Shown: positions 28,755-52,972 of the stretch, in pieces
Layout of the letters: each line of letters begins with the position of its first letter
Position numbering within the stretch: position 1 is the stretch's first letter
NCBI RefSeq assembly: GCF_013179285.1
Contig: NZ_WVNW01000002.1
Location: 372,001-436,000, forward strand
Length of the DNA: 64,000 nucleotides
DNA from: Roseobacter sp. HKCCD6576-2
GTDB taxonomy: Bacteria; Pseudomonadota; Alphaproteobacteria; Rhodobacterales; Rhodobacteraceae
Direction: 5' to 3'
Notes under the pieces: generated by a model
Seen by the model: the letters and a program-made list of their open reading frames with translations, nothing else
Database searches by the model: none
What the model was told of the DNA's origin: nothing
Program-made: the position numbers and the translations under genes

Positions 28755-28823
28755 TTTGAAGATGCAGAGATTATCAGCAAGGCAAAATGCGAGGCTTTCC
28801 ATCGCCCCGATGATGGATTGGAC
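28755..28823 (+). pseudogene. Decayed dusA 5'-end fragment (putative left attachment site)
   Basis: This stretch resembles the upstream leader and first codons of dusA at 51966-52035. A 14-base block (28755-28768) is identical to 51966-51979, and 23 bases (28801-28823) are identical to 52013-52035. The intervening 32-33 bases are only partly similar, and the copy here is one base shorter, so an ATG at about 28787 is out of frame with the core. Homology to dusA stops at 28823. Confidence 0.75.
28801..28823 (+). repeat. 23-bp direct repeat, left copy (attL-like core)
   Basis: Identical to 52013-52035, the codons for IAPMMDW in dusA. The 5' end of dusA is a well-known integration site for tyrosine recombinases of phages and islands, and such integration leaves a direct repeat of this kind at both ends. 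Confidence 0.75.
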
Positions 28824-28920
28824 AGGTTTACTTATCTTTTCAATACCTTAAGAGGAGTTTTGTGCACCGTGCTTGCAACGTGAAGTCGCCTTCTGAGGCG
28901 CCATATCGTGCGTTTGGCGG

Positions 28921-29358
28921 TTGCGCGGGTTTAGCCAGATTGAAGCGCATCGGAACCGATGGGTTTGGCCTTACGCAAAACAGAGCGGACGCAAGCGTGC
29001 GATCGGTACGAGAGCCTCTAAGGCGATTCCGCAGTGGCCAAACAAACACTGGCCGCTCGGTCTCATGTTGGACGCATTCTCGGACGCCTCGTGGTTCCGC
29101 ATCCTTTGCATCATCGGTGATTTCAGCCAGGAATGCCGGGCTGCCGTCGTGGACATGTTGCTCTCGCGCACTCGGGTCGCGGGAGAATTGGATCGGATCG
29201 CAGAAATGCGGAGGCATTCCTGCATTGTGGTCAGCGACAACGTCACACTCGCTGACGTTTACTCCGGGCGCGACAAGGCCATTCCACAACAAAGGGAAAG
29301 GATCAAACGAAAGACACTCGAAGCGCGTCGGGTACAACACAGAAAACGTGCCGCATAA
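28921..29358 (+). pseudogene. Degenerate IS3-family transposase (OrfB) fragment
   Basis: A 145-codon open stretch whose residues about 22-107 match the catalytic core of IS3-family OrfB: SGRKRAIGTRA, AIPQWPNKHWPLG, DAFSDASWFRILCIIGDFSQEC, RVAGELDRIAEM and IVVSDN. The core normally reads W-S-L-D-F; here the first catalytic Asp is Gly (WPLGL). Similarity ends after VVSDN, so the final Glu region, OrfA and both terminal inverted repeats are missing. It lies just inside the left boundary of the putative island. Confidence 0.8.
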
Positions 29359-29388
29359 TGCAATCAGACAGAGGGGCCAAAATCTCTC

Positions 29389-31056
29389 CTAAACTAGGCC
29401 GCTCTTCGTGCCAGAAACCCTGACGAAAGACGATCTGAGATCGCTCGGCAGTAGCGTCTCCGGCGTGTTCTGGTAGCAGACCGGTCGAAGCCAACGTCTG
29501 ATCGCGAGTGTCCCCACCGAGGTCTGCCCGAAGTTGGTCGAGGCCGGATAGGGACCGCCATGGACCATGGCGTCAGCCACTTCGACGCCAGTTGGAAATC
29601 CGTTGAACAGAATGCGCCCCGCCTTTCTCTCCAGACTGGGGAGAAGGCGGCGCACCGCATCGTGATCCGCATCGTCCATCTGCAGGGTGGCCGTTAGCTG
29701 TCCATCAAGCTGGGCGGCGACAGTTTCCATTTCGGCGCTATCTGCCGCCACCACCAGTATCGCGGCGGGCCCGAAAACCTCGTGGCGGAGGGTGTCGTCC
29801 ACCATCCAGTCTCGGGCCGAAACGCGGAACAGATCCGGGCCCGCAGCCCGCGATGCATCGTCCGAGACAAAGAGCGTTTCCACGCGGGGCGCGCCGACAA
29901 GCATATCCCGCCCTGCGCGGTAGGCCGAGGCGATGCCGTCTGTCAGCATGGTTTGCGCCGCGACACCGGACAGGGCCGCGACCGTCTCTGCGGCGAAGAT
30001 GTCCGCGTCGGCACCCTCGATGGCGATGGCAACGCCCGGGTTGGTGCAGAATTGCCCGGCCCCCATGGTCAGCGATCCGGCCCAAGCCTTGGCAATCTCA
30101 ACGCCCCGGGCCGCAAGCGCCGCAGGCATCAGAAAGACCGGATTGATGCTGCCCAACTCGCCATAGAAGGGGATTGGTTCGGCCCGGTTTGCGCACATGT
30201 CGAACAGCGTGCGGCCTGCGCCGAGCGACCCGGTGAAACCGACGGCGCGGATCAGCGGATGGGTGACAAGCGCCGTACCGACGGCGTGATCGCCGCCATG
30301 GACAAGTGAAAACACGCCCCCAGGTAAACCGGCGGCGGCGATCGCCTCGGCGATCGCTTCGGCCACGACTTCGGACGTTCCGGGGTGAGCTTCATGCCCC
30401 TTAACGACGACAGGGCATCCGGCAGCCAAAGCCGAGGCCGTATCGCCGCCTGCGACCGAGAATGCCAGCGGGAAGTTGGAGGCGCCGAACACGGCGATGG
30501 GGCCAATCGGGCGCTGGATCATATGTAGCTCCGGGCGCGGCAGTGGCGTTCTGTCGGGCATGGCCGGATCATGGCGCCGGTCAAGGTAATCGCCCGCGTC
30601 GATGTGGTCGGCAAAGAGCCGAAGTTGGCCGACCGTGCGCCCGCGCTCGCCTTCCAGCCGAGCCGCCGGAAGGCCGGTCTCACGGGTTCCAATCTCGGTG
30701 ATGGCATCGCCGACGGCGTCGATGTGGTCGGCAAAGAGCCGAAGTTGGCCGACCGTGCGCCCGCGCTCGCCTTCCAGCCGAGCCGCCGGAAGGCCGGTCT
30801 CACGGGTTCCAATCTCGGTGATGGCATCGCCGACGGCGTCGATGCGGACTGCAATGTCACGCAGCAACGCCGCTCGTTCGGCCCGGCTGGTGGCGGCAAA
30901 GGCGGCAAAAGCGTCTTCGGCGGCAACAGCGGCGTGCTCGATGAGGGCGGGTGTGCCCTTGGCGAAGGCTTCGGCCGCACCGGCGATGGGGGTGTTCCTG
31001 AATGTGTCTTCGCCGCCGATCCATGTCCCGGCGATGAGGTGCTGTCCTTTGGACAT
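29389..31056 (-). CDS. Aldehyde dehydrogenase (ketoglutarate semialdehyde dehydrogenase type) with internal 40-residue duplication
   Basis: A 555-residue NAD(P)-dependent aldehyde dehydrogenase; relatives have about 515. Start ATG 31056 has GGAGG upstream. Motifs: FGASNFPLAFSVAGGDTASALAAGCPVVVKGHEAHPG is split among the cofactor-binding strands, with GFTGSLGAGR, ELGSINPVF and the catalytic cysteine in GAGQFCTNPG. Residues 73-112 are repeated exactly as 113-152 because of a 120-bp tandem duplication. The family oxidises 2-oxoglutarate semialdehyde and related aldehydes in sugar-acid pathways. As the last gene of the cluster transcribed leftward from the RraA-like gene, it probably finishes that pathway. 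Whether the duplicated protein is active is unclear. Confidence 0.88.
   Translation of the reverse strand: MSKGQHLIAGTWIGGEDTFRNTPIAGAAEAFAKGTPALIEHAAVAAEDAFAAFAATSRAERAALLRDIAVRIDAVGDAITEIGTRETGLPAARLEGERGRTVGQLRLFADHIDAVGDAITEIGTRETGLPAARLEGERGRTVGQLRLFADHIDAGDYLDRRHDPAMPDRTPLPRPELHMIQRPIGPIAVFGASNFPLAFSVAGGDTASALAAGCPVVVKGHEAHPGTSEVVAEAIAEAIAAAGLPGGVFSLVHGGDHAVGTALVTHPLIRAVGFTGSLGAGRTLFDMCANRAEPIPFYGELGSINPVFLMPAALAARGVEIAKAWAGSLTMGAGQFCTNPGVAIAIEGADADIFAAETVAALSGVAAQTMLTDGIASAYRAGRDMLVGAPRVETLFVSDDASRAAGPDLFRVSARDWMVDDTLRHEVFGPAAILVVAADSAEMETVAAQLDGQLTATLQMDDADHDAVRRLLPSLERKAGRILFNGFPTGVEVADAMVHGGPYPASTNFGQTSVGTLAIRRWLRPVCYQNTPETLLPSDLRSSFVRVSGTKSGLV
30596..30844. repeat. Perfect 120-bp tandem duplication inside the aldehyde dehydrogenase gene
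   Basis: Bases 30601-30720 are repeated without a mismatch at 30721-30840; periodicity extends a few bases on each side (30596-30844). The unit is 40 codons, so the frame is kept. Confidence 0.97.
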
Positions 31057-31073
31057 TGGAGGCCTCCGTTGGG

Positions 31074-31853
31074 TCAGGTGTTCGTGCCGGGACCCGGCAT
31101 GGTGAAATTGAGCGGCATTCGCCCGCCATCGACGAACAGGCATTCGCCGGTGATGTAGCTGGAACGGGGGCTTGCCATGTAGATGATCGCGTCGGCGACT
31201 TCCTCCGGGGCCCCAAGGCGGCCGAGCGGAGTACGTGACAGAACCCGGGCGCGGAGCGCGGGAGAGCGGGACTGCCCTTTGCGTTGCAGGGGCGTGTCGA
31301 TGCTGCCGGGGGCCACCATGTTCACGCGGATGCCATCGGGGGCCAGCGCGATGGCCATGGCGCGGGTCAGCTGCAAGAGGCCGCCCTTGCTGGCCACATA
31401 GGCCGCATTGTCAGGGAGCGCGAGTTGCGCGTTAACCGATCCGATATTAACGATGCTGCCGGGGGCGCCTGCGGCGACCAGCGCCCGGGCAACGGCTTGT
31501 CCCAACAGAAACGGCGCCCGCAGGTTGATTTCATAGACACGGTCGAAATCCTCGCCTTCCATATCCAGGAAATCGGTCCTGTGGGTAATGGCGGCATTGT
31601 TGATGCAAATCTCGACCGGACCGCCAAGCGCATCCTGTGCGGCGGCTGCGAGGCCCTGGATCGCGTCCGGATCGCGCAACTCTGCCGGGTGATAGGTTAC
31701 CCCGCCGGTGTCGTCCCACACGTCTGTTGTCGGCGCGAGATCGGTGGCAAAGACCAATGCACCCTCGGCAAGAAGAAGGTTGACCGTGGCGCGGCCAACA
31801 CCGCCCAAAGCGCCGGTCACCAAGGCGCGTTTTCCCGTCAGCCGAAGATCCAT
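31074..31853 (-). CDS. Short-chain dehydrogenase/reductase (SDR)
   Basis: A 259-residue classical SDR with NAD(P) motif TGALGGVGRA (residues 14-23), NNAAIT, the catalytic Ser in GSVNAQ and the YVASK pair, and an adenine-specificity Asp after the second strand (ATDLAP) suggesting NAD. The C-terminus SSYITGECLFVDGG is standard. It starts 3 bp after the NIPSNAP gene and precedes the aldehyde dehydrogenase. In a cluster with a sulfatase and a lactonase-like protein it could oxidise a released sugar to its lactone, as sugar 1-dehydrogenases do. The substrate is not known. Confidence 0.9.
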   Translation of the reverse strand: MDLRLTGKRALVTGALGGVGRATVNLLLAEGALVFATDLAPTTDVWDDTGGVTYHPAELRDPDAIQGLAAAAQDALGGPVEICINNAAITHRTDFLDMEGEDFDRVYEINLRAPFLLGQAVARALVAAGAPGSIVNIGSVNAQLALPDNAAYVASKGGLLQLTRAMAIALAPDGIRVNMVAPGSIDTPLQRKGQSRSPALRARVLSRTPLGRLGAPEEVADAIIYMASPRSSYITGECLFVDGGRMPLNFTMPGPGTNT

Positions 31854-31856
31854 GGC

Positions 31857-32513
31857 TCAGGCCCTCCTTTCCGGTCGGGTCCAGAACGGAGCCGGCGTCG
31901 CCGTGAAGGTCTGCATATCGGCCATCATCGGAAGGAAGGCCTTCATGCAGTCTTGCCAGTCGGGGTCTGCCAGAAGCGCTTGCCGCCGGGCAAGGCGCTC
32001 GGCGTGATCGGCATGGCCCCAGATATGCAGGATACGGTTCTGTCTGCCGGTCTGACTAATCAGATAGGTGATGTTGTCCGTCCAATGTCGGGCCTGGACA
32101 GGCGCGGACCGTGTCTTGAGAATGTCGAGGAACGCGGACATGTCACCATGATGAAGTGCGTAGCAGCGAACGTCCACGAGGCCCGGCGTGGTCGCGGATC
32201 GCGTATAAGGCAGGTCAGGGATTTGCCGCATCACCTCGGTCTCTTGATCGGAGAACAGGCCCTTGAAATCCTGTCTGACAGAGATCCATTCAGGGTCTTG
32301 AGCCATGGCGGCGCGTCGGGTTTCCATGTCTGTGGTGTCGTCATATCCCCATAGGTGAAGGACATGGTTTTGTGGGCCGACATCGGCAATGAACCAGCCC
32401 AGAGCTGTGCCCAGATGGCGTTCCTGCGCCGCGTAGCCCGCCGCGCCATAGCGGCTGAGATAGGGGGCGAGATGTCCCGGTTTCAGGGTGTAGCGGCGCA
32501 CATCAACGATCAT
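31857..32513 (-). CDS. NIPSNAP family protein, two-domain
   Basis: A 218-residue protein with two ferredoxin-like NIPSNAP domains in tandem: VDVRRYTLKPGHLAPYL to NHVLHLWGYDDTTDMETRRAAMAQDPEW, and VDVRCYALHHGDMSAFL to NRILHIWGHADHAERLARRQALLADPDW. Such proteins occur in bacterial catabolic operons, but their reaction is unknown. Its ATG overlaps the sulfatase stop (ATGA), so it is translationally coupled to that gene. Confidence 0.87.
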   Translation of the reverse strand: MIVDVRRYTLKPGHLAPYLSRYGAAGYAAQERHLGTALGWFIADVGPQNHVLHLWGYDDTTDMETRRAAMAQDPEWISVRQDFKGLFSDQETEVMRQIPDLPYTRSATTPGLVDVRCYALHHGDMSAFLDILKTRSAPVQARHWTDNITYLISQTGRQNRILHIWGHADHAERLARRQALLADPDWQDCMKAFLPMMADMQTFTATPAPFWTRPERRA

Positions 32514-34081
32514 TCTTGGTCCTCAGGACTCCATGCGCCGGCGAAGACGCCATTCTTGCGCCAGCTTTCGGTCTTTGCCTCGATCGCTGCGTCTGAGATC
32601 GTCGCGCGACGTTTGCGAGCGCGCAACCACGCGAACAGGCGCGCTTCAAGCTTGGCACAGATGTCTGAATAGGCCGGGTCGCGGCCGAGATCGACGAACT
32701 CGTCAGGATCGGTTTCCAGGTCGAAGAGTTGTGGCGGAAAGCCTTCGAAATAGACATAGTTCCAGCGCGCATTGCGTAGATTATAAGCGCGTGCGGCGTG
32801 CGGTGGGACATTCAACTCGCGGCGCTGCTGCCGGAAGGAATAGTCCAGCTCGCTGAAAACCGTATCCCTCCAGGGGATATCTTGCCCATGCAGCAGCGGC
32901 AGCAACGACTGGCCCTCTAGGATGTGATCGGGCACCTCACCGCCGAGCCAGTCAACGAAGCTCGGCAACAGATCAATAGATTCGACGGGGCGCGCGGAGA
33001 CGGTGCCGCGCGTGCCGTCAGCCGCTGCGTCGGGATCGACCACAATGAGCGGTATACGCGTCGATTGGCGATGGAACATCTCTTTGTCGCCCAACCAGTG
33101 ATCGCCAAGGTAATCGCCGTGATCGCTGGTAAAGACGATCATGGTTTGATCAAGCGCGCCGCGGTCTTCGAGGAAGGCCATAAGACGCCCGATCTCGTCA
33201 TCGATCTGTTTGATCATGCCCATGTAAATGGGGATCACCGTGTCGCGCGCCTCGTCCCTGCAGAAGGTCCGGCATTCCTCGCGCGCGTGATAGGCGGCGA
33301 GCACAGGGTGGGGATCGTCCAGTTCTCGCGGGTCACGTAGGGCAGGGGGCACATCCGCGGCTCCGTACATCGCGTGATAGGGCGCCGGTGCCACATATGG
33401 CCAGTGCGGTTTGATATAGCTCAGATGCAGGCACCATTGGTTGGTCTGTGCGGCGATGCACTCCATCGCGCGATTGGTCATGTAAGCCGTCTCGGAGTGT
33501 TCCGCCGGAACACGCGCGGCCGCACCGACATTCTGCAGATACCAGCCGGATTTTGGCTCCGCGTCGCCGGTGGCATTCGCTCGGTAGTGCCACGGGTTCG
33601 GACCTCCGAGGCCGTGCTCCTCAAGGTATCGATTATAAGCGTAATCCGGCTTGACGGCGGCATCGGCATGGATCCCGTCATCGCGTTCGAACACGCGAAA
33701 GCCGCCTTCCGCCATCAGGCGGCCCTCCTTGGTGTTTGGATCGATTCCCAGGCGCGCCAGGCCGTCGAGGTTTGGGGTGACATGGCTTTTGCCGACCAGC
33801 AAGACATCGGTCCCAAGCGGGCGCAGATGATCGCCCATCGTCATCTCAGAGGTCGGCAGCGGCACATAGTTCCAGGTGGCGCCATGGGTGGAGATATAAC
33901 GGCCTGTATAGAAACACATCCGCGACGGGCCACAGACGGGCGATTGCACATAGGCCTGCGAGAAGCGAACACCGCGCGCCGCCAGGGCGTCAATATTCGG
34001 CGTTTCTAGTGACGGATGGCCAGCACAACCGAGATAGTCGTAGCGAAGCTGGTCCGCCATGATGAAGAGGATGTTCTTCAT
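32510..34081 (-). CDS. Type I sulfatase
   Basis: A 523-residue alkaline-phosphatase-fold sulfatase. The start ATG 34081 places the metal-binding MADQLRYDYLGCAG at the N-terminus. The formylglycine motif is PVCGPSRMCFYTGRY, with the Cys of C-X-P-S-R as the residue to be converted. VFTSDHGDYLGDHWLGDKEMF supplies the second metal site. No signal peptide is visible, so it is probably cytoplasmic and acts after uptake by the TRAP transporter. No formylglycine-generating enzyme gene is in the window. The substrate is a sulfate ester, unidentified. It is 5 bp from the SMP-30 gene stop. Confidence 0.9.
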   Translation of the reverse strand: MKNILFIMADQLRYDYLGCAGHPSLETPNIDALAARGVRFSQAYVQSPVCGPSRMCFYTGRYISTHGATWNYVPLPTSEMTMGDHLRPLGTDVLLVGKSHVTPNLDGLARLGIDPNTKEGRLMAEGGFRVFERDDGIHADAAVKPDYAYNRYLEEHGLGGPNPWHYRANATGDAEPKSGWYLQNVGAAARVPAEHSETAYMTNRAMECIAAQTNQWCLHLSYIKPHWPYVAPAPYHAMYGAADVPPALRDPRELDDPHPVLAAYHAREECRTFCRDEARDTVIPIYMGMIKQIDDEIGRLMAFLEDRGALDQTMIVFTSDHGDYLGDHWLGDKEMFHRQSTRIPLIVVDPDAAADGTRGTVSARPVESIDLLPSFVDWLGGEVPDHILEGQSLLPLLHGQDIPWRDTVFSELDYSFRQQRRELNVPPHAARAYNLRNARWNYVYFEGFPPQLFDLETDPDEFVDLGRDPAYSDICAKLEARLFAWLRARKRRATISDAAIEAKTESWRKNGVFAGAWSPEDQE

Positions 34082-34086
34082 GGCGG

Positions 34087-34977
34087 TCAAAACAGGTGAT
34101 GGCCGGTGGCGTTCACCGGGATCGTATAGAGCGATGTCGATGAGGTTGTCACCAGCGTCCGGCGATCCGCCCCCATCCATGTGAAGTTCGCGGTCTTTTC
34201 GGGGATCAGGATCACGCCGAGCGACACGCCATCGGGTGAGAAAACCTGCACGCCGCCGGGTCCGGTGCACCAGACCCGGTCTTCGGCGTCGCATTTCATG
34301 CCATCGGCCACACCCTCGCCCGCGCCAGTGAGTTCCGCGAACACCGCGCCTCCCGAAATCTCTCCGTCAGCCGTCACATCGTAGCGGCGGATGTGTTTGC
34401 GAAGGGTGTCATTGACGTAGAGCACCGTCTCTTCGGCATTGGTGCAAAGCCCGTTCGGCAGCTCGTAGTCGCGGGCGACAGGTTCAGCCGTTTCTGCCTC
34501 GGGCCGGATCCGCCAGACGCCCTGAAAATCGAGGTCCTGATCGCGTTCGACGCCGAAGAACGGCTTTCGGCCTGCAAGCGGGTCGGAGAACCAGATGGTG
34601 CCGTCGCGAGTGACGATGATGTCATTGGGGGCGTTCAACTCCTTGTCTCCGAAATGGCTGGCGAGGACCGACAGAGACCCGTCTGCCTCAAGCCGGACAA
34701 CACGGCTGGTTGCATGCTCGCAGGTCAGAAGCCGGCCCGCCGCGTCATAGGTGTTGCCGTTAGCCTTGTGGCTGGGTTGGCGAAAGACCGATGGCATCGC
34801 ATCTCCGGGTCGCCAGCGGTACATCGCATCGCCCGCGATGTCGCTGAAGGTCAGATGGCCTTCGGTTGGATGCCAGGCCGGGCCTTCGACGAACTCGTAC
34901 CCTGTCGCGAGTTGCGACACCGTCGCGTCCGGAACGATGACCGCTTCGAAATCGGGATGTCGGATATCGTATTGCAT
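34087..34977 (-). CDS. SMP-30/gluconolactonase-like (LRE) beta-propeller hydrolase
   Basis: A 296-residue six-bladed propeller protein. ATG 34977 follows GGAAGGAA. GYEFVEGPAWHPTEGHLTFSDI supplies the metal-binding Glu, NAPNDIIVTRDGTIWFSDP the conserved Asn, and YELPNGLCTNAEETVLYVNDT and GVADGMKCDAEDRVW the later metal ligands. Members hydrolyse sugar lactones. It lies between the TRAP genes and the sulfatase and fits a pathway in which a sugar is oxidised to a lactone and then opened. Confidence 0.9.
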   Translation of the reverse strand: MQYDIRHPDFEAVIVPDATVSQLATGYEFVEGPAWHPTEGHLTFSDIAGDAMYRWRPGDAMPSVFRQPSHKANGNTYDAAGRLLTCEHATSRVVRLEADGSLSVLASHFGDKELNAPNDIIVTRDGTIWFSDPLAGRKPFFGVERDQDLDFQGVWRIRPEAETAEPVARDYELPNGLCTNAEETVLYVNDTLRKHIRRYDVTADGEISGGAVFAELTGAGEGVADGMKCDAEDRVWCTGPGGVQVFSPDGVSLGVILIPEKTANFTWMGADRRTLVTTSSTSLYTIPVNATGHHLF

Positions 34978-35002
34978 GGTTTGGTTCCTTCCAATCGGCG
35001 CC

Positions 35003-36298
35003 TTAGAACCCGAACGCACGCGGGATGAACAGCACCACCTCAGGGACATAGGCCATCACCAAAAGCGCGGCTACGAGCGGTAGCAGGAACGGCGCAACCG
35101 CAATGCAGACTCGGGTAAAGGGCAACCCGGTGATATCCCGCATTATGAAGAGCGACATGCCCATCGGCGGGGTGAACTGCCCGATCATGATGGTGAAGAC
35201 CATAACCACACCCAAGTGTAGCGGGTCCATGCCGTAATTGGCGACGGCAATCGGGACGATCATCGGCGCCAGGATCAACAGCAGGATCGCATCGGCGACA
35301 ATCGCGCCCAAGAAGATGATGACCACCATCAGAAGAAGCAGGAAAGCCCATTGTTGATCGAAAGTGCCGCCGATCCAGCCAGCCAATTCCTGTGGCATGC
35401 GTCCTACGGAAAGAACCCACCCGAACAACAATGACATGGCGATCACAAACAGAAGGCGCGTTGTGCCGATCACGACCTCGCGGCTGACGTCGAAAAATGT
35501 GGCCAGCCCCAGGTCGCGATAGACGATGACGGCGAGAAACAGGGCATACAGGACGGCGACCACCGCCGCCTCGGTCGGGCTGAAGATCCCCAGGACCATA
35601 CCGCCCACAATCAGGACCGGCGTCAAAAGCGGTGGCAGCGCGTAGAGAAACGCCATACCCAGGCGCCCAAGGCTCCATTGACTGTCCGTGGTGTAGTAGC
35701 CGTGTTTGCGGCCCACGAGGTAGACATAGATCATCAGGCAGCCGGTGATCACGAAGGCGGGCATGATGCCGCCAAGAAACAGGCCGGTGATCGAGACCTC
35801 CGCCACCAGCCCGAAAAGCACCATCGGCACACTCGGCGGCAGGATCGGACCGATCGCGGCAGAAGACAGCGTTACTCCCATCGCGAAATCTTCTTTGTAG
35901 TTCTCATCGCGCATGGCCTTGTATTCCATGCGCCCTAGCCCCGCGACGTCGGCCAGCACCGATCCCGACATGCCGGCAAAGACCAGACTCGCGAAGATGT
36001 TCACATGGCCCAGCCCACCGGGAATCCGTCCGACCATGAGCTTGGCAAATGCGAAGATCCGATCCGTGATCTTGCCTGCGTTCATCAAGGCACCTGACAG
36101 CATGAAAAGCGGTATCGCCAGCATGGTGAAGTTCTGAAGCGATCCGCCCAGCTCCACGACCGCGAAGGACAACGGGAAATCGTTCCACCACAGATAGAGG
36201 ATCGACAAGCCGCCCAAGGCAAAGGCGAGGGCATAGCCGCCGAGCACAAGCACGAGGCTGGCAATAACCAACCCGATTAGAAACAAGCTAAGATCCAT
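35003..36298 (-). CDS. TRAP transporter large permease (DctM-like)
   Basis: A 431-residue membrane protein with about twelve helices, the DctM subunit. MLAIPLFMLSGALMNAGKITDRIF, HVNIFASLVFAGMSGSVLADVAGLG, GVTLSSAAIGPILPPSVPMVL and GQFTPPMGMSLFIMRDITG are family signatures. It uses a sodium or proton gradient to move the substrate handed over by the DctP-like protein. It overlaps the small subunit gene by 11 bp. Confidence 0.94.
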   Translation of the reverse strand: MDLSLFLIGLVIASLVLVLGGYALAFALGGLSILYLWWNDFPLSFAVVELGGSLQNFTMLAIPLFMLSGALMNAGKITDRIFAFAKLMVGRIPGGLGHVNIFASLVFAGMSGSVLADVAGLGRMEYKAMRDENYKEDFAMGVTLSSAAIGPILPPSVPMVLFGLVAEVSITGLFLGGIMPAFVITGCLMIYVYLVGRKHGYYTTDSQWSLGRLGMAFLYALPPLLTPVLIVGGMVLGIFSPTEAAVVAVLYALFLAVIVYRDLGLATFFDVSREVVIGTTRLLFVIAMSLLFGWVLSVGRMPQELAGWIGGTFDQQWAFLLLLMVVIIFLGAIVADAILLLILAPMIVPIAVANYGMDPLHLGVVMVFTIMIGQFTPPMGMSLFIMRDITGLPFTRVCIAVAPFLLPLVAALLVMAYVPEVVLFIPRAFGF

Positions 36299-36797: not shown

Positions 36798-36831
36798 GGG
36801 CGCTTGATCCGTCGATTGAGGGGGCGGGGGC

Positions 36832-36856: not shown

Positions 36857-36875
36857 TTGTGCTGTTAGATGGAGA

Positions 36876-44735: not shown

Positions 44736-45848
44736 ATGAATATAGAGCAGTTACTAACGGAAATCCGCCGGGAATCATCCTCGGATGCCGCTGGCGATCC
44801 GGAAAGGTTTCGGCGCGTCGCTCTGACCGAGCACGAAATGATGTCTCAAGGCGAGGCCATTCGGGCAACGCTTGCAGCCAATGTCGTGCCCCTGGCCGCC
44901 ATCGGGCGCGATCTTGCGGACCGTAGCATCCGCCGCGTGGTCACCGTTGGCTGTGGCGATAGCTGGATTGCCGGTCACGGCGTGCGCCCGGCGCTGGAGG
45001 CCGCTCTGGGCGCACCCTGCGAGCCAATCGAAGCGTTCGACTTCGCGACCTACGGCTTGGACACCATCGACGATGAAACCGTGGTCATCGGCCTCAGCTC
45101 CTCAGGCAAGACCGAGCCTGTGATCGACGGTCTAACGGGCGCGGCAGAGCGTGGGGCTTACACGATCGGCCTTTCGAACACGCTCGAGTCGCCCTTGATG
45201 GAACAATGCCCCGGTGCGCTGCACATCCGGGCCACGCGCGGCGGCTGGCCGACGCAGTCCAGCACGGCGGCGATGGCGTTGATGCTGGCCATGGCTGCGG
45301 CCGTACAAGACGCAAAAGGTGGAGATGCATCTGCCTTGAGCGCAGCGCTGGTTGCACTGCCGGATCAGGTCGATTCCGTGGCGCGCGAGTTTTTTGAACC
45401 GGCCCGACAGGTGGCCAAGCGTCTTGCCCGCGCTGATCTGGTTCTGACGACTGGCGCAGGTCCGTTTTACGCGCCAGCTGAGTTTGGCGCGGCCAAGCTG
45501 AAAGAACTGGCACCGATCCATGCCTACTCTTTCCCGCTGGAGGAGTATCACCACTATCGGACCCAGAAGGCCGGCGATCCGCTATTCCTGATCGCGGGGG
45601 ACAAGGCAAGCCATGCCCGCGCCCTGGACACCGCGCTTATGTCGCGGGGTGTAGAAGGTTACTGCGTGGCGATTGTACCGGAGGACGAAACCGAGATAGC
45701 AAAGATTGTCGATGTCGCCTGGCATCTACCAAACGTTTCGGCGGGGACTGCGCCGATTGTCTACAGTGTGCCCATGCACTTGTTCGGCTATCACGCAGCG
45801 GTCGAACGCGATGCACTCGGCCTTGGTGCGCCCCGGCTTGGGGGCTGA
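44736..45848 (+). CDS. SIS-domain sugar isomerase/deglycase (FrlB/AgaS/GlmS-C-like)
   Basis: A 370-residue protein with two SIS domains. VVTVGCGDSWIAGHGVRPAL, IGLSSSGKTEPVIDGL and IGLSNTLESPL form the first sugar-phosphate site. TTGAGPFYAPAEFGAAKLKELAPIHAYSFPLEEYHHYRTQKAG is the second domain and contains the Glu and His often used for isomerisation. It lacks the glutaminase half of GlmS. Relatives release an amino compound from a phosphorylated Amadori sugar (FrlB) or isomerise amino-sugar phosphates. A PfkB kinase follows, as in the frl system. Confidence 0.8.
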   Translation: MNIEQLLTEIRRESSSDAAGDPERFRRVALTEHEMMSQGEAIRATLAANVVPLAAIGRDLADRSIRRVVTVGCGDSWIAGHGVRPALEAALGAPCEPIEAFDFATYGLDTIDDETVVIGLSSSGKTEPVIDGLTGAAERGAYTIGLSNTLESPLMEQCPGALHIRATRGGWPTQSSTAAMALMLAMAAAVQDAKGGDASALSAALVALPDQVDSVAREFFEPARQVAKRLARADLVLTTGAGPFYAPAEFGAAKLKELAPIHAYSFPLEEYHHYRTQKAGDPLFLIAGDKASHARALDTALMSRGVEGYCVAIVPEDETEIAKIVDVAWHLPNVSAGTAPIVYSVPMHLFGYHAAVERDALGLGAPRLGG

Positions 45849-45849
45849 T

Positions 45850-46872
45850 GTGACGCCGGATCTTGTGACGGTCGGAGGGCTTACGGTTGACAATGTCATT
45901 GCTGCCGACGGCACCGTTGCGCTGGATCTTGCGGGTGGCAACGGCGCTTTTTCCGCCGTTGGCGCGCTCAACTGGGTGAACCGCGTCGGGCTGGTCAGCT
46001 GCGCGGTCGCGACCTATCCGAAAGACACCATAGCGCGGCTGGAGGCGGGCGGGGTCGACCTTGCGGGTGTGGTCTGGTCCGACGCGGCCCTGACCGCGGG
46101 CAGCTGGTTTCTCTATGATGGGGCAGGGCGGCGTGACGAGGGGCTGACGGCGCCGGGTGCCGCGTTGGCCGAGGCGGGGTTTCCGACTGACCGGCTTTCG
46201 GCTGAGCAGGTGGTGGCGTGGCGCGCGCGTCTTGAGGCGCGCAAACTGTTGAACGAGATCGGCTATTCGGAATTTAGGGAGCAGCATCCGTTGCGGGCGG
46301 CTCAGGTGCCGCAGGCCTGGCGCGGGGTGAAAGGCGTTCATTTGGCACCCAGCGCGCCGCGCGTACTGCTGGAGATGCTAGATCTGTTCGAACCGAGGGG
46401 GGCAGTGATCACCGCCGATCCGGGTTGGCAGTTGGCGAGCCAGAGGCTCGAAGACATCGCCCCAGTCCTGGCGCGGCTCGATGCCTTCATCCCCAGTGAG
46501 GTTGAGCTGCATGCGCTGGTGCCAGACGCCGCGCCAGCCGATGCTTTGGCGGTGATCTCTGAGCGATGTCGCGGCGTGGTGGCGGTCAAAATGGGGCCGC
46601 AAGGCGCGCTGATCTGGGACCGTGTAACGCGCACCGCCATAGCTGTCCCACCACAACGGGTAGAGGCCTGCGACCCGACTGGCGCCGGTGACAGTTTTTG
46701 CGGCGGGTTTCTGGCGGGCCTCGTTGAAACTGGCGACCCGGTGCAGGCGGCCAGTTTTGGCGCGGTTTCTGCGGCGGGGGTCGTGTGTAGTTTCGGCGCC
46801 GCCGGTGCCCTCCCGGCAGACCAGGCGACCGCGCGCGCCACATTGCAAAAGGAACCCAATATATGTCGCTGA
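45850..46872 (+). CDS. PfkB-family carbohydrate kinase
   Basis: About 340 residues from GTG 45850, which begins TPDLVTVGGLTVDN and lies 1 bp after the SIS stop; ATG 45811 is the alternative and would overlap that gene. LDLAGGNGAFSAVGAL is the glycine-rich sugar-binding motif, and EACDPTGAGDSFCGGFLAGL carries the catalytic Asp of GAGD. It should phosphorylate a sugar or a sugar moiety of the imported compound. The order SIS-kinase recalls FrlB/FrlD. It overlaps the BtpA gene by 10 bp. Confidence 0.87.
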   Translation: MTPDLVTVGGLTVDNVIAADGTVALDLAGGNGAFSAVGALNWVNRVGLVSCAVATYPKDTIARLEAGGVDLAGVVWSDAALTAGSWFLYDGAGRRDEGLTAPGAALAEAGFPTDRLSAEQVVAWRARLEARKLLNEIGYSEFREQHPLRAAQVPQAWRGVKGVHLAPSAPRVLLEMLDLFEPRGAVITADPGWQLASQRLEDIAPVLARLDAFIPSEVELHALVPDAAPADALAVISERCRGVVAVKMGPQGALIWDRVTRTAIAVPPQRVEACDPTGAGDSFCGGFLAGLVETGDPVQAASFGAVSAAGVVCSFGAAGALPADQATARATLQKEPNICR

Positions 46873-47651
46873 AGCTATTCGATGGTGCCAAGCCGGTTAT
46901 TGCCGCCCTTCATCTGCCGGATTTTGCCCTAAACCGGCACCGGTCGGTCGCGTGGTACGAGGATTATGCCGTCGCCAACGCCCGTGTGTTCGCACAAGCT
47001 GGCATCCCCTGGATCAAGCTGCAGGATCAGACCAAAACTGCGGGAGCCGCCGCCTCGGACACCCTGGCGCTGATGTCTGCAATAGGGCGCCTGATCCGGG
47101 CAGAGGTCCCCGGGCTTGGCCTGGGTATCATTGTCGAGGCGCATGACCCAGTTGCGGCCATGTCGGTGGCCCATGCCACGGGGGCCGATTTCGTCCGGCT
47201 CAAGGTGTTTGTGGGCGGCGCGATGACCGCGCAAGGCCCGCGCGATGGGCTTGGCGCAGAAACTGTCTCTTACCGCGCCATGTTGCGGCGGCCTGATATT
47301 GCGATCTTGGCCGACGTGCATGACCGCACGGCGATCCCGCTCTCGGGCGAGAGCCAGCCTTTCGCGGCAAACTGGGCCGCCAAATCCGGGGCCGACGGCT
47401 TGGTCATCACCGGCAGCAGCTTTTCCGATACGCTGGCCCGGATCGACGCGGTGCGCGGCAAAGGCATTCACAAACCGATCCTGATCGGTGGTGGCGTGAC
47501 CGATGGCAATGTGGCCGAGGCGATGGCCGCCGGCGATGGCGTGGTGGTCAGCAGTGCACTGATGCGGCGCGATGCGGCGCCGGAGGATCTGCTGCAATGG
47601 GATGCCGATCTGTGCAGCCGCTTCATGGATGCGGTGCGGGTTCCTGCATGA
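46863..47651 (+). CDS. BtpA/SgcQ family TIM-barrel protein
   Basis: A 262-residue member of the BtpA/SgcQ family. VIAALHLPDF, GIPWIKLQDQT, GIIVEAHDPVAAMSVAHATGADFVRLKVFVGG, ADVHDRTAIPL, ADGLVITGS and PILIGGGVTDGNVAEAM repeat in barrel order, and the last is a phosphate-binding loop. The family is named for a cyanobacterial protein affecting photosystem I, while SgcQ lies in an E. coli sugar operon; no enzymatic reaction is generally assigned. Here it follows a kinase, so a phosphorylated substrate is plausible. It overlaps the next gene by ATGA. Confidence 0.85.
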   Translation: MSLKLFDGAKPVIAALHLPDFALNRHRSVAWYEDYAVANARVFAQAGIPWIKLQDQTKTAGAAASDTLALMSAIGRLIRAEVPGLGLGIIVEAHDPVAAMSVAHATGADFVRLKVFVGGAMTAQGPRDGLGAETVSYRAMLRRPDIAILADVHDRTAIPLSGESQPFAANWAAKSGADGLVITGSSFSDTLARIDAVRGKGIHKPILIGGGVTDGNVAEAMAAGDGVVVSSALMRRDAAPEDLLQWDADLCSRFMDAVRVPA

Positions 47652-48598
47652 GCGGGGCGGCGCGCGATTTCACCGGCTACGCGGGCCAGCCGCCGGCGAT
47701 GCGCTGGTCAAATGGAGCAGGGCTTGCCGTTTCTATCGTCGTGAATGTCGAAGAAGGCGCCGAGTTGAGCCTTGGCGCCGGCGACGACCGCAATGAGCAT
47801 ATCTACGAGGCGGTTGAGCGAGTCGAGGGCGCCCGCGACCTTTGTATGGAGAGCCATTTCGAATATGGCCCGCGTGCGGGCTGGCCGCGGATCCGAGATG
47901 CGCTGTCGGATCGTGACCTGCCAGCGACGCTGAATGCCTGCGGCCGCGCGCTGGAGGCGACGCCCTGGATCGCCGCGCAGGCGGTGCAGGACGGTCATGA
48001 GGTTTCGGCCCATGGCTGGCGGTGGGAACGCCATGTCGGCCTGGACGATGCGACGGAGCGCGCCGCGATTGCCCGCACCGTCGCGACCATCACGCGGACG
48101 GCCGGGACGCCGCCGCTTGGATGGCACACGCGCTCTGCCACCTCCGAACGCACCCGGGATCTGCTTATCGAACAGGGCGGGTTTCTCTATGATAGCAACG
48201 CCTATAATGACGACATACCGTATCTGGTCGATACCGCACATGGCGCTCATGTGGTGCTGCCCTATGCGTTCGACACCAATGACATGCGGTTTTACAACGG
48301 GGGCGGCTTTGTCTTTGCCGAGGACTTCTCCCGCTATTGCATCGCAGCCTTCGACCGGCTGTTGGTCGAGGCCGAGAAAGCCCCGCGCATGTTGTCGATC
48401 GGCCTACATACCAGGATTATCGGGCGCCCGGCACGGATCGGAGGGCTTGAAGCGTTTCTGGACCACGCTGTGCGTCACGATGATGTCTGGTTCGCGACCC
48501 GGGCCGAAATCGCCCATGCTTGGCGCAGCGCCGTAGGGCTGCCCGAGTGGACGCCGCGTCCGTGCCCCAAGGGGTTTGCGCCCGGAGGGAGCGTATGA
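47648..48598 (+). CDS. Polysaccharide deacetylase-fold hydrolase, PuuE (allantoinase)-like, copy 1
   Basis: A 316-residue member of the NodB-fold carbohydrate esterase superfamily, of the PuuE/allantoinase-like branch. VSIVVNVEEGAELS is the characteristic first motif, HEVSAHGWRWERH the second, and HTRSATSERTRDLLIEQGGFLYDSNAYNDDIPY and SIGLHTRIIGRPARIGG follow. PuuE-like proteins hydrolyse cyclic amides such as allantoin rather than sugars. ATG 47648 overlaps the BtpA stop. It is a paralogue of the next gene. Confidence 0.85.
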   Translation: MSGAARDFTGYAGQPPAMRWSNGAGLAVSIVVNVEEGAELSLGAGDDRNEHIYEAVERVEGARDLCMESHFEYGPRAGWPRIRDALSDRDLPATLNACGRALEATPWIAAQAVQDGHEVSAHGWRWERHVGLDDATERAAIARTVATITRTAGTPPLGWHTRSATSERTRDLLIEQGGFLYDSNAYNDDIPYLVDTAHGAHVVLPYAFDTNDMRFYNGGGFVFAEDFSRYCIAAFDRLLVEAEKAPRMLSIGLHTRIIGRPARIGGLEAFLDHAVRHDDVWFATRAEIAHAWRSAVGLPEWTPRPCPKGFAPGGSV

Positions 48599-49482
48599 CT
48601 CGCGATCTGATCGGATATGGAGGTGCCTGGCCGGATCTGACTTGGCCTGGAGGCCATAAGCTGGCCGTTTCGGTGGTGGTCAATGTCGAAGAAGGGGCGG
48701 AACAACAGGTGCTCGATGGCGACCCGATCAGCGAGCGGATCGGCGAGGTGCTCTCGGTCGTGCCCGAGGGCAAGCCCGACCCCGGTCAGGCGCAGATCTT
48801 TGCCTATGGCACGCGGGCCGGAGCGTGGCGCATGGCCGATGCGCTACGCCGCCACCGGGTTCCCGCGACCCTGTTCGCCTGCGGGCGCGCGGCGGAACGG
48901 GTAGGGCCGGTTCTGCGCATGCTGGCGCGCGATGGCCACGAAACCGCCTGTCACGGCTGGCTTTGGCGCCCTCATGCCGATTATGACAGCCCAGAGGCCG
49001 AGGCCGTTGACCTCGATCGTGCCGATGTGGCCATCGCGGCCGCGACGGGCGACGTCCCACGCGGGTTTTTCTGCCGCGGGGCCGAAAGCCCCTGGACGCG
49101 CAGCCTTCTGGCCGAGCGGGGTTACCTTTACACCTCTAACGGGTTTGATGACGACCTGCCGTACAGGGATGGCTCGGGCCTGATCGTGGTGCCCTATGCG
49201 CTCGACGCCAACGATATGAAATTCTTCCATCCCAACGGCTTTGTGCGCGCATCGGACATGGTCGATTACGTGACCGACGCGTTGGACGTGCTGGAGGCCG
49301 AGGCCGCGCGTGGCATGCCGCGCCTGCTGAATATCGGGTTCCACTTGCGGATCGTTGGCCGCCCGGGTCGGTTCAAGGCGTTCGAGCAGGTCCTCGCCGA
49401 ACTGGACCGCCGCCGGGATCGGCTGTGGCTGGCGCGCCGGATCGAAATTGCCGAGGTCTTTGACTGGGCCTGTCCGGCATGA
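48595..49482 (+). CDS. Polysaccharide deacetylase-fold hydrolase, PuuE (allantoinase)-like, copy 2
   Basis: A 295-residue paralogue of the preceding protein: VSVVVNVEEGAEQQ, HETACHGWLWRPHADYD, CRGAESPWTRSLLAERGYLYTSNGFDDDLPY and NIGFHLRIVGRPGRFKAFE align position by position. The main differences are Cys instead of Ala before the HGW motif, CRGAES in place of HTRSATS, and a charged C-terminus. ATG 48595 overlaps the first copy (ATGA). Two non-identical copies side by side suggest two substrates, or a heteromeric enzyme. Confidence 0.85.
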   Translation: MTRDLIGYGGAWPDLTWPGGHKLAVSVVVNVEEGAEQQVLDGDPISERIGEVLSVVPEGKPDPGQAQIFAYGTRAGAWRMADALRRHRVPATLFACGRAAERVGPVLRMLARDGHETACHGWLWRPHADYDSPEAEAVDLDRADVAIAAATGDVPRGFFCRGAESPWTRSLLAERGYLYTSNGFDDDLPYRDGSGLIVVPYALDANDMKFFHPNGFVRASDMVDYVTDALDVLEAEAARGMPRLLNIGFHLRIVGRPGRFKAFEQVLAELDRRRDRLWLARRIEIAEVFDWACPA

Positions 49483-50126
49483 TTGTGCTGATCAATCCCA
49501 ACACGTCTGAGACGACCACCGAGGCCATGCTGCGGATTGCACGGCAGGTGGCGGGCCCGGCGGTGCGGGTCGACGGGCTGACCGCGGCATTCGGGGCGCC
49601 GTTGATCACCGACCCTTTCGCGCTGGCCCGCGCGGCAGACGCCGTCGCAGCGCTTGCGCCGCGTGTGGGCAGGGCCGAGGCTGTGATCGTCGCGGCCTTT
49701 GGCGATCCCGGCCTGATGGACCTACGCGGACGGCTGTCGGTGCCAGTCACGGGCATTGCCGAGGCGGGTATGGCCGAGGCGGCGCAGGTTGGGGCACAAT
49801 TTGCAGTTGTGACGACGACGCCGGATTTAAGCGATCACATTGCCAAAGCCGCCCGTTCCTACGGCCATGAGGCGTTCCTTGGCACCTGGACGACGCCCGG
49901 CGATCCGGCGGTTCTGACCCATGATGCCGTCGCACTGCAAACCGCGTTGGCCGAAGCGTGCGACCGTGCCGTTGAAGCCGGAGCCGAGGCGATCATCATT
50001 GGCGGCGGACCACTGGCCGAAGCCGCCCAAAGCCTCGCAGCCTCATCCCCAGTGCCGCTGATCGAACCGCTGCCCGCAGCCGTCCGGCTCAGCCTTGCCC
50101 GCTGCACCAAAGGAGCTTCTAGATGA
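49479..50126 (+). CDS. Asp/Glu/hydantoin racemase-family protein lacking both catalytic cysteines
   Basis: A 215-residue protein of the aspartate/glutamate/hydantoin racemase fold. The N-terminal IVLINPNTSETTTEAML is typical of hydantoin and allantoin racemases. The motif that normally reads A-C-F-G-D-P-G-L is VAAFGDPGL here, and the second cysteine region reads IIGGGPLAEAA instead of containing a Cys. Both acid-base cysteines are therefore replaced (Ala and Gly). Racemisation by the usual two-cysteine mechanism is unlikely. It may bind the substrate or use other chemistry. The ATG overlaps the PuuE-like gene before it and the amidohydrolase after it. Confidence 0.82.
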   Translation: MIVLINPNTSETTTEAMLRIARQVAGPAVRVDGLTAAFGAPLITDPFALARAADAVAALAPRVGRAEAVIVAAFGDPGLMDLRGRLSVPVTGIAEAGMAEAAQVGAQFAVVTTTPDLSDHIAKAARSYGHEAFLGTWTTPGDPAVLTHDAVALQTALAEACDRAVEAGAEAIIIGGGPLAEAAQSLAASSPVPLIEPLPAAVRLSLARCTKGASR

Positions 50127-51634
50127 CCCGCCATATTGTCGCCGCCGACCATATTATCACCGGGTTCGATGAAGGCGGCGCGGCGCAGATCGTTGCCGAC
50201 GGGGCCATCCTGATCGACGGAGACCAAATTGTCGAGATCGGCCCCGCCGGCGCCTTGCGCAGGGCGCATCCGGGGCTACCCGAGACCGGTGGCAAGGGCA
50301 GGGTGGCCATCCCGGGTCTGATCAACGCGCATCACCATGTCGGTCTGACCCCGTTCCAGATGGGCGCGCGCGATCAACCTCTGGAACTGTGGTTTCCCGA
50401 ACGCCTTGCGATGCGCGATGTCGCGCCCCGGCTGGATACGCTCTATGCGGCCTTCGAGATGATCGCCTCGGGTGTGACTACCGTGCAGCACCTTCATAGC
50501 CGGGCGCCGGGCGATACCGATGCCGTGCTGGCTCGCGCCGACACCATCATTGGCGCCTATAAGGACCTCGGCATGAGGGCGAGCTACTCCTTTGCCCTGC
50601 GTGACCAGAACCGCATGATCTATGCGGCGGATGAAGAGTTCATCGCCTCGCTACCCGCCGCTCTGCAAAAACCAACGGCGGATTATCTTGCCGGCTTCGG
50701 CCTTCCATTGTCTGACCAGATCGCGGTGTTCCATGCGTTGCGCGCCCGGTGGCAAGACGATGCGCTTGTAGGCATCCAGATTGCGCCGTCGAACCTGCAC
50801 TGGCTGTCGGATGCGGCGCTCGAAAGTGCCGCGCAGATGGCCGAAGAGACCGGCGCACCGATGCATATGCACCTTTTGGAGACGCCGTATCAGAAGGAAT
50901 ACGCCCGCCGTCGCACTGGCGGCTCTGCGCTGGAGCATATCGACAGCTTTGGCCTTGTCGGGCCGCAACTGACCATTGGTCACGGGGTCTGGATGACGCC
51001 GGATGATGTTGCCCTGCTGGCGGAGCGTGGCGGCTGCCTGTGCCACAATTGTTCGTCCAACCTGCGCCTGAAGAGCGGCACAGCCGATCTGAATGGCTTC
51101 CTTGCCAGCGGCGTGCCGGTCGCGCTTGGCCTCGACGAGGCGGGGATCAACGACGATCGTGACATGTTGCAGGAGATGCGGCTTGCGCTGACGCTGCATC
51201 GGCCTGCCGGGCATGATGCGCCGCATCCGACCGCATCGCAGATTCTGCGGATGGCAACGGAACATGGGGCCGCCACGACGCCCTTCGCAGGGCGGATTGG
51301 GCGTCTGGCACCGGGGCGTCTGGCCGATATCGTGTTGCTGGACTGGCAGGCTGTCACCAAACCGTGGCAGGACCCGACCATGCCCTTGGTTGATGTGTTG
51401 ATCCGGCGCGCAAAATCCGGGGCTGTCGCTACGGTTCTGATCGGTGGCAACGTGGTTTATGATGAAGGCCGCTTCACCAATATCGACCGCGAGCAAGTCT
51501 TGGAAGAGATCGCAAGCGATCTCGCTCGTCCCTGTTCGGAATCCGAGGTCAGCATGCAGCGCCTTTCCCGGGACCTGATAGAGCCGGTCAGCCGGTTTTA
51601 TGAGGGCTGGCTTGGCCAAGGCGCGGGCCGCTGA
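50123..51634 (+). CDS. Metal-dependent amidohydrolase, 8-oxoguanine deaminase/TrzA-AtzA type
   Basis: A 503-residue amidohydrolase. Metal ligands are visible: the HXH of GLINAHHHVGLTPFQ, HMHLLETPYQ, LTIGHGVWM, and the final Asp in ALGLDEAGINDDRDM. HNCSSNLRLKSGTADL is typical of aminohydrolases of the guanine, 8-oxoguanine and triazine deaminase branch. The small beta-sandwich is formed by both ends (VADGAILIDGDQIVEIGPAG; RLADIVLLDWQ). It probably deaminates or dechlorinates-like hydrolyses an exocyclic group on a nitrogen heterocycle. It closes the SIS-kinase operon. Confidence 0.87.
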   Translation: MTRHIVAADHIITGFDEGGAAQIVADGAILIDGDQIVEIGPAGALRRAHPGLPETGGKGRVAIPGLINAHHHVGLTPFQMGARDQPLELWFPERLAMRDVAPRLDTLYAAFEMIASGVTTVQHLHSRAPGDTDAVLARADTIIGAYKDLGMRASYSFALRDQNRMIYAADEEFIASLPAALQKPTADYLAGFGLPLSDQIAVFHALRARWQDDALVGIQIAPSNLHWLSDAALESAAQMAEETGAPMHMHLLETPYQKEYARRRTGGSALEHIDSFGLVGPQLTIGHGVWMTPDDVALLAERGGCLCHNCSSNLRLKSGTADLNGFLASGVPVALGLDEAGINDDRDMLQEMRLALTLHRPAGHDAPHPTASQILRMATEHGAATTPFAGRIGRLAPGRLADIVLLDWQAVTKPWQDPTMPLVDVLIRRAKSGAVATVLIGGNVVYDEGRFTNIDREQVLEEIASDLARPCSESEVSMQRLSRDLIEPVSRFYEGWLGQGAGR

Positions 51635-51988
51635 GCAGATCGCGCCTGCTGGCATAATAACTGTTGCTAGCCCGGTGCCTTGTCCTGTCTGACGTTAGTG
51701 ATTGCGGGTCTGAATAGCATTATTTGACACGTCGGCGCATGGTCGCGGCCTTACTTCTGTGAGATGGTTTCCCATCCGCGCACAGGTCGACTATATGCAG
51801 ATCAACGAGATTGCCAACATCGCACGAAGGACGGTGGAAGGCTTGTTCGGTAACAAGGCCTGATCGACACTGCGTGCGCGGCTCACATGCCAACGAGTTG
51901 CAGTGGAGAGGCAAATCGGGAGATATTGAGACGTGTTCCAGACGAGCAGCTTTGCCCTGCAACAGTTTGAAGATGCAGAAAAATTGAA
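51635..51988. other. 354-bp region at the right end of the putative island
   Basis: No intact gene is supported. A minus-strand open stretch at 51720-51962 and a plus-strand one both lack recognisable similarity. If a dusA-type integrase once lay next to this end, only unrecognisable remains could be here. The last 25 bases before dusA resemble the sequence upstream of the decayed fragment at 28.75 kb. The stretch should also hold the promoter now used by dusA. Confidence 0.4.
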
Positions 51989-52972
51989 ATGAAACAGCAC
52001 GCTAGACTTTCTATCGCCCCGATGATGGATTGGACCGATCGTCATTGCCGGTATTTGCACCGGCTGATGTCTCGGGAAGCGTTGTTGTATACCGAGATGG
52101 TCACGGCCCCCGCGATTTTGCATGGTGATCGAGATCGCTTGTTGGCCTTCGATCCGGCAGAGCATCCTGTGGCATTGCAGCTTGGCGGGTCTGATCCGTC
52201 CGAGCTGGCCAACGCGACGGAGATTGCGGTCGGATATGGGTATGATGAGATCAATCTCAATATCGGCTGCCCGTCGGATCGCGTGCAGTCGGGTTGTTTT
52301 GGAGCGGTGTTGATGGAACGGCCCAAGCTGGTGGCCGATTGCGTCGCGGCAATGATTGCGGCCAGCCCGGTGGAGGTCACGGTTAAATGCCGGATCGGCG
52401 TCGATGACCAAGTGCCCGAAGAGGTGCTGCCAACGTTTCTGGAGACGGTCGCGGCAGCTGGTGTCGGGCGGTTTGCGATCCATGCCCGGAAAGCGTGGTT
52501 GCAGGGCTTGAGCCCAAAGGAAAACCGGGATGTACCGCCGCTGAATTACCCGCTGGTCTATCAGATGAAACGCGATTTCCCTGAGCTGCATCTGTCGATC
52601 AATGGTGGCGTGATGTCGTTGGATGAGGCGCAGGCCCATTTGGCCGAAGGGATGGATGGCGTGATGATTGGGCGAGCGGCTTACCATGACCCGTCGAACA
52701 TTTTGCTCGCTGCCGATCAGAAGATTTTCGGTCTGGACTGCGAGCCGCGGAGCGCCGAAGAAATCGTCGGTCTGATGTTGCCCTATATCGCCGCGCATGT
52801 GGCCAATGGCGGCAAACTGGCCCATGTCACGCGGCATATGTTGGGTCTGTTTGCCGGACGTCCGGGCGCGCGGGGTTGGAAACGCGTTTTGTCGGAGCGT
52901 GCGCATCGTCCCGGCGCCGGGGTTGAGGTCGTCGAGGCTGCGTTATCTGAGATTGTATTGCGCGCGGCGTGA
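51989..52972 (+). CDS. dusA: tRNA-dihydrouridine synthase A
   Basis: A 327-residue FMN enzyme that reduces uridines in the tRNA D-loop. SIAPMMDWTDRHCRYLHRLMS starts the barrel, EMVTA and ALQLGGSDP follow, and the catalytic cysteine is in INLNIGCPSDRVQSGCFGA (the second Cys). RIGVDD, IHARKAWLQGLSPKENR and GVMIGRAAYHDP are the DusA-specific parts. The first eight codons, before the 23-bp repeat, would be element-derived if the island model is right. The gene is complete. Confidence 0.95.
   Translation: MKQHARLSIAPMMDWTDRHCRYLHRLMSREALLYTEMVTAPAILHGDRDRLLAFDPAEHPVALQLGGSDPSELANATEIAVGYGYDEINLNIGCPSDRVQSGCFGAVLMERPKLVADCVAAMIAASPVEVTVKCRIGVDDQVPEEVLPTFLETVAAAGVGRFAIHARKAWLQGLSPKENRDVPPLNYPLVYQMKRDFPELHLSINGGVMSLDEAQAHLAEGMDGVMIGRAAYHDPSNILLAADQKIFGLDCEPRSAEEIVGLMLPYIAAHVANGGKLAHVTRHMLGLFAGRPGARGWKRVLSERAHRPGAGVEVVEAALSEIVLRAA
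52013..52035 (+). repeat. 23-bp direct repeat, right copy (attR-like core)
   Basis: Identical to 28801-28823 and lies within the first codons of intact dusA. It marks the likely right boundary of the island. Confidence 0.75.

Follow-up and report, generated by a model that had tools for sequence, protein, structure and literature searches.

Genomic islands that exchange the 5' end of dusA have been described by Farrugia et al. (2015; PMC4482086). According to the passages of that paper cited here, 94 islands are bounded on each side by 21-bp repeats, excision was detected by polymerase chain reaction, and such integrases occur in the Alpha-, Beta- and Gammaproteobacteria; the paper's single mention of Rhodobacter concerns an integrase at another gene. 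In the cited passages of a second paper (PMC8409611), an island is reported to provide dusA with a new promoter and reading frame, and one tandem pair at dusA is described. We examined the dusA locus of Roseobacter sp. HKCCD6576-2 in a stretch of 64,000 nucleotides (contig NZ_WVNW01000002.1, positions 372,001 to 436,000), here called the window, whose own numbering is used throughout. Judged by sequence comparison, the block between two copies of a dusA core sequence is very probably a dusA-specific genomic island of 23.2 kb (probability about 0.92). The mechanism is the one already published, as given in the cited passages of PMC4482086, and no new mechanism is involved.

The 23-mer ATCGCCCCGATGATGGATTGGAC is present on the + strand at 28801-28823 (left attachment repeat, putative attL core) and at 52013-52035 (right attachment repeat, putative attR core, within the first dusA codons) with no mismatch between the copies. 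No third site with three or fewer mismatches was found in the window, the maximum across 100 dinucleotide shuffles was 0 copies, and the genome assembly (4.4 Mb, 64 contigs) has just two copies at the same tolerance. Upstream of each copy, the 14-base leader block TTTGAAGATGCAGA occurs exactly at 28755-28768 and 51966-51979. The spacing from this block to the 23-mer is 46 bases in the left copy and 47 in the right, which is near register, and a gapped local alignment of the two copies extends over 78 columns. Both repeats had been claimed in a preliminary description of this DNA, and both are exact. The same description called the left copy a decayed dusA start, which was not borne out. From the ATG at 28762 the left copy has an open frame, MQRLSARQNARLSIAPMMDWTGLLIFSIP, ending in a stop codon. 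This displaced dusA 5' end (28762-28851, + strand) runs from its ATG through ARLSIAPMMDWT and then through island bases to the stop, and the displaced start at the island's left edge reads MQRLSARQNARLSIAPMMDWT.

The dusA gene at the other end (51989-52972, + strand) is intact (Pfam Dus, E 6.7e-78) and has an island-type N-terminus, MKQHARLSIAPMMD, as revealed by alignment of the right end. When the flanks were fused in silico at the repeat (the displaced start followed by 52036 onward), one full-length in-frame DusA was obtained. Free of 28824-52035, dusA would begin MQRLSARQNARLS. Direct repeats in the conserved 5' region of dusA are present at both ends, 23 bp long and exact. Alignment, the displaced frame and the joined flanks all indicate that the island provides the present 5' end in frame while the original lies at the outer boundary.

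The right end was compared with dusA-associated integrase loci of other genomes. A right-end model built from 14 genomes, the present one excluded, matched 51873-52036 at E 6.6e-25 and 51741-51870 at E 2.9e-14 (nhmmer); beyond these and a match at 28636-28823, nothing in the window scored below E 1. In the 14-genome alignment the integrase-dusA spacer and first dusA codons are alike through ATGATGGAYTGGAC in most genomes and divergent after it. Positions 51873-52036 (+ strand) fit this alignment and comprise the island's right end, that is, the spacer and the island-supplied dusA start. Beside it, at 51735-51902 on the minus strand, lies a remnant (~55 codons) of a dusA-associated tyrosine integrase, recognised by tblastn, genome search and nhmmer. 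Within it, 51738-51902 matches residues 25-79 of the integrase of genome G036 (38%, E 2e-5, tblastn), and a whole-genome search with the same protein matched residues 34-80 at 51735-51875 (43%, E 3.9e-5). The remnant reads GNLVDLHIVDLCADGKPSHRSKAAT, with a stop shortly after. It has the place and orientation of an integrase whose 5' end adjoins that of dusA, divergent from it. The whole-genome search found no full-length relative of the G036-type integrase in this genome; two weak matches (24%) were also returned. A second fragment of the same type lies outside the window at C62:12155-12289 (residues 2-46, 53%, E 2.5e-6) in an open frame of 96 aa. A promoter scan of 51600-52100 gave one minus-strand site, against a shuffle mean of 0.4.

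In related genomes this arrangement is found with complete integrases. Genome G006 has a tyrosine integrase divergent before dusA, and at a threshold of E 1e-30, 51 of 295 genomes of the family have a relative of that protein and the present genome has none. Integrases of the G036-type subfamily that are 95.8-97.0% identical to that of G036 are found in seven genomes (G263, G205, G201, G100, G307, G216 and G145), whose dusA genes, counted from the core, share 70.6-78.4% identity with that of G036. The integrase is far more alike than dusA across these seven hosts, which fits an element moving between hosts. Of 248 loci with this integrase in the named collection, the 80 best were analysed. Within these best 80, the integrase start faces a divergent dusA within 1 kb at 74, always at 140-199 bp and in 70 of the 74 at 140-159 bp. 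The other six have no dusA in the stretch, and in three of them the integrase is less than 200 bp from the start of the stretch. Within the genus, the integrase beside dusA matches residues 15-73 and 71-238 in G001 (85%) and residues 1-177 in G004 (58%). The match is thus partial in all three genus genomes that show the right end (the present one, G001 and G004).

The left end is also conserved, over ~140 bp (28801-28942, + strand). A blastn search of 28620-28940 against 295 genomes matched 141 bp in G100 (74%, E 9.5e-20) and 137 bp in G074 (73%, E 3.1e-16), and also gave weaker left-end matches and many short ones to the dusA core. In all, 63 of the 295 genomes matched, mostly through the core alone, with two candidates scored per genome, so that some left ends may have escaped. 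The left end is common to six other genomes, where it lies upstream of dusA (on the same strand as dusA in G100 and G074). Its distance to dusA is 52.7 kb in G100, 35.7 kb in G259, 23.4 kb in G001, 13.7 kb in G003, 7.8 kb in G012 and 2.6 kb in G074. A model of the G100, G074, G259 and G012 left ends matched 28801-28942 at E 2.6e-29, a value that is not independent because these four were found by likeness to the window end. This was the sole full-length match in 244 kb of the contig; a core-only match was seen at 52013-52046 (E 0.0013). Two tests are independent. The four left ends sit upstream of dusA. In addition, dusA-like repeats upstream of dusA, not the left end, had first pointed to G001 and G003, and this same left-end model, which includes neither the present genome nor its genus, matched both there (E 4.5e-6 for G001 and 1.1e-8 for G003).

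Six of the seven left-end loci (the window, G100, G074, G259, G003 and G001, not G012) have a displaced in-frame dusA 5' end before the left end; that of G003 has no ATG or GTG start. Beside dusA, G100 and G012 have a full-length integrase match, G001 and the window a partial one, and G074, G259 and G003 none at E 1e-8. The ~140-bp left end may allow elements without a detectable intact integrase (that of the window and those of G074 and G259) to be recognised by sequence. It offers a practical way to find integrase-less islands that integrase-based searches miss. No description of it was found in the cited passages of PMC4482086 or PMC8409611. A search against plasmids with the left end gave no match. 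The pattern CCSATGATGGATN{10,40}TTTCAAT matched 4 of 295 genomes, among them G101, G112 and G310. Genome G014 has an integrase at dusA and, 15.3 kb upstream, a displaced start that is not accompanied by this left end. A partial second left-end match (L116 7754-7808, E 7e-4) falls ~1.2 kb into the G100 element and may mark a nested or tandem end.

The block shares with the islands of Farrugia et al. (PMC4482086, passages cited) its insertion site in the dusA 5' end, imperfect direct repeats on either side, mosaic cargo, and the supply of a new dusA 5' end by the island while the old one marks the outer boundary. It differs from them in that its integrase is a short remnant, its cargo is catabolic, the open reading frames (ORFs) scanned including no phage, conjugation or mobilisation family, and its host belongs to the family of Ruegeria and Poseidonocella. 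The SGI1-related elements of Vibrio (PMC8409611, passages cited) also target dusA, but they carry an integrase, RdfN and mobilisation genes, whereas no integrase gene or mobilisation family was found in the window (RdfN was not searched for). A close counterpart is the G100 element of Poseidonocella pacifica DSM 29316 (NZ_FOJU01000001.1). Its left end is that of the window (74% over 141 bp), its right end is of the same integrase subfamily, and it measures 52.7 kb from left end to dusA; unlike the window, it has a full-length integrase, 96% identical to that of G036.

The preliminary description had proposed a 23.2-kb island placed in the 5' end of dusA by a gene-rebuilding tyrosine recombinase. 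Homology at both ends and the integrase remnant support this proposal, and its view of the dusA 5' end as a known target at which a repeat is left and the gene rebuilt agrees with the cited passages of PMC4482086. An element-borne tyrosine integrase would have recombined its attachment site with the conserved ATGATGGAYTGGAC in the first dusA codons. The old dusA 5' end would have been displaced to the island's left edge, and dusA would have stayed intact because the element brought its own leader, start codon and in-frame first codons. The anatomy of a dusA island is seen by comparison of sequences, and from it we infer the recombination. The integrase gene, divergent beside dusA in relatives, appears to have been worn to ~55 codons near the end of the cargo. 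Since a remnant is left and the genome search gave no full-length relative, the island is probably immobile, fixed in place by loss of its integrase. The locus shows how a block of metabolic genes may become fixed, the host gene surviving by use of the island's front end. A tRNA gene was rejected as the integration target; there is no tRNA in the window.

The dusA locus was compared among five genomes of the same genus (G001-G005). Genes to the right of dusA are syntenic with the window in all five, and to the left each genome is different. The upstream stretches compared were 7.8 kb in G004, 15 kb in G005, 19 kb in G002 and 35-36 kb in G001 and G003. ORFs of 28.8-51.7 kb found only distant relatives in these stretches at E 1e-15 (ABC ATPase up to 41%, SDR 34%, polysaccharide deacetylase 41% in G002, among the matches listed). 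The cargo is thus variable and absent from the site in relatives, where identity does not exceed 41% among the matches listed. On the outer side of the left end, 21596-28457 holds a Na+-NQR-like cluster (NqrA, NqrB, an FMN-binding protein, two Rnf-Nqr subunits, an NqrF-like protein and ApbE) followed by a CBS-domain protein. The preliminary description had predicted that genomes lacking the island would have the CBS gene directly beside dusA. None of the five did in the stretches examined, where the CBS/nqr ORFs had no match at E 1e-15. It had also named an outcome that would refute the island, namely the whole block conserved in place across distant relatives together with no genome joining the CBS gene to dusA. 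The second part was observed, in the stretches examined. The first was not, and the island is not refuted. The CBS/nqr block as the ancestral neighbour of dusA is not supported. In 60 other genomes, no relative of the window's ApbE exceeds 47% identity, so the NQR-like block may itself be accessory. When upstream ORFs of eight genomes were searched against 244 kb of the contig, matches above 45% were confined to a pair of neighbouring genes of G002, with a shadow ORF, at 1100-3506, which hints that the old left flank may lie near there. The window genes there (1100-3986) encode a BKACE protein and a 3-hydroxyacyl-CoA dehydrogenase/thioesterase, 85% and 73% identical to the G002 genes among the matches listed; in G002 these lie ~15-17 kb upstream of dusA. 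In L041/L042 (G001), genes to the left of the displaced dusA end are unlike those of the window and form another variable block at the same site. A large ORF there has a GATGSGKS motif, which we take to be nucleotide-binding-loop-like.

Several points weigh against an island of this kind. Little is left of the integrase (E 2e-5 to 3.9e-5), and C62 carries another piece from this family, 45 residues long. PF00589 has no match in the window, all 15 matches in the genome lying outside it. The left end also occurs in four genomes (G278, G182, G128 and G289) in stretches where no dusA was found; a displaced start is clear in G128, partial in G278 and lacking in G182 and G289. No true empty site was found, the left of dusA differing in every genome of the genus. 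In one rival explanation, non-specific recombination simply duplicated part of the dusA start and no integrase took part; the repeat with its leader is short, and no intact integrase is present. That explanation is barely credible, being already contradicted by both inner ends: they match termini of dusA elements from other genera, and some of those elements have a full-length integrase. Alternatively, the ends may be those of a dusA element but most of the cargo later, homologous recombination or IS elements having filled a small resident element and also cut its integrase. The cargo amidohydrolase does end at 51634, ~100 bp from the integrase remnant, an IS3 remnant lies just inside the left end, and G074 has a stretch of 2.6 kb with the same left end and no integrase detected. 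However, lengths from left end to dusA range from 2.6 to 52.7 kb and the longest, in G100, goes with a full-length integrase, which makes a large element-borne cargo plausible. We consider later filling unlikely.

We also wondered whether the island landed on a dusA that already held an older element. The leader of the displaced 5' end (28636-28800, + strand) resembles a dusA-integrase right end. The 14-genome model, the present genome excluded, matched 28636-28823 at E 3.5e-14 with the dusA core included; with the core removed, the leader alone gave E 0.0025 when 64 kb was searched and 0.0094 with 244 kb (nhmmer). The leader was scored against 95 leaders with an adjacent integrase and 19 without, drawn from two collections, with some genomes twice in the first set. 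Its best scores in the first set were 29 (L163) and 28 (L166 and G027), nearly in register, and its best in the second was 19, the sets being of unequal size. Precedents for both outcomes are at hand. The displaced dusA end of G003 has an integrase fragment ~200 bp to its left, and its leader scores 54 against the integrase-dusA spacer of G025 and at most 19 against leaders without integrase; by sequence, one island has landed on another there. The displaced leader of G001 scores at best 90 against leaders without integrase and 32 against those with, as in a first landing. The left copy of the window is intermediate between the two in leader likeness.

The island-type leader suggests tandem accretion, in which an older island of the same kind lies beneath the present one and its outer left end is no longer recognisable. 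The other possibility is that the leader is the ancestral dusA leader of the lineage and that the island once captured a similar dusA start. In line with the latter, the left copy has an open frame as native starts do, and the displaced start of G128 encodes a similar peptide, MKRLDQNARLSVAPMMDW. A second, outer left end was sought across the 188 kb on the left side, and none was found. The case for an older island is made by leader scores (E 0.0025-0.0094), and the register-free score of 29-30, weak alone, was exceeded by one of 200 shuffles (33). Conversely, the near-register likeness to right ends with an integrase exceeds that to leaders without, and the leader model had no match at E 0.05 in dusA regions of 30 other genomes. 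On balance an older island is somewhat favoured, and an ancestral leader seems the more doubtful of the two. More tentatively, and as a proposal about which we are rather evenly divided, dusA may be a stacking site in this lineage, where elements land on each other's ends, lose their integrase and keep the last ~165 bp of the right end because dusA relies on it for leader, start codon and first codons. Islands there would be permanent.

Between the ends, an IS3-family transposase remnant (28985-29300) lies inside the left end, with 65.8-84.4% identity by blastn to IS3 transposase places on plasmids; the query ended at 29300. The cargo was assigned by Pfam. A first group on the minus strand (29389-39752) encodes an aldehyde dehydrogenase, SDR, NIPSNAP, sulfatase and SMP-30/gluconolactonase-like proteins, a TRAP transporter (DctM, DctP), an RraA-like protein and a GntR regulator. 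A second, also on the minus strand (39789-44687), encodes an ABC transporter (two permeases, ATPase and binding protein) and a DeoR regulator. The third, on the + strand (44736-51634), encodes a SIS protein, a PfkB kinase, BtpA, two polysaccharide-deacetylase-fold proteins, an Asp/Glu/hydantoin racemase and an amidohydrolase. The catabolic genes and IS3 remnant expected between the copies are thus present, with transport genes. No integrase, phage structural, transfer or mobilisation family was found by Pfam among the ORFs scanned in 29-52 kb (ORF 36288-36797 and shadow ORFs were outside the scan), so that a prophage or a conjugative or mobilisable element, with phage or transfer genes between its ends, is not indicated among them. 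Strong relatives of the amidohydrolase (E 1e-80) occur in 4 of 198 family genomes, the present one included. Plasmids carry homologues of parts of the cargo, none of which spans 80% of the queried stretches of 7.8-7.9 kb. The aldehyde dehydrogenase gene contains a perfect 120-bp tandem duplication at 30596-30844 (2.1 copies, 100% matches), a multiple of three. Plasmid homologues of the gene, shorter by 115-120 bp, align with it in two pieces, and the repeat is either a recent in-frame duplication of 40 residues or an effect of assembly.

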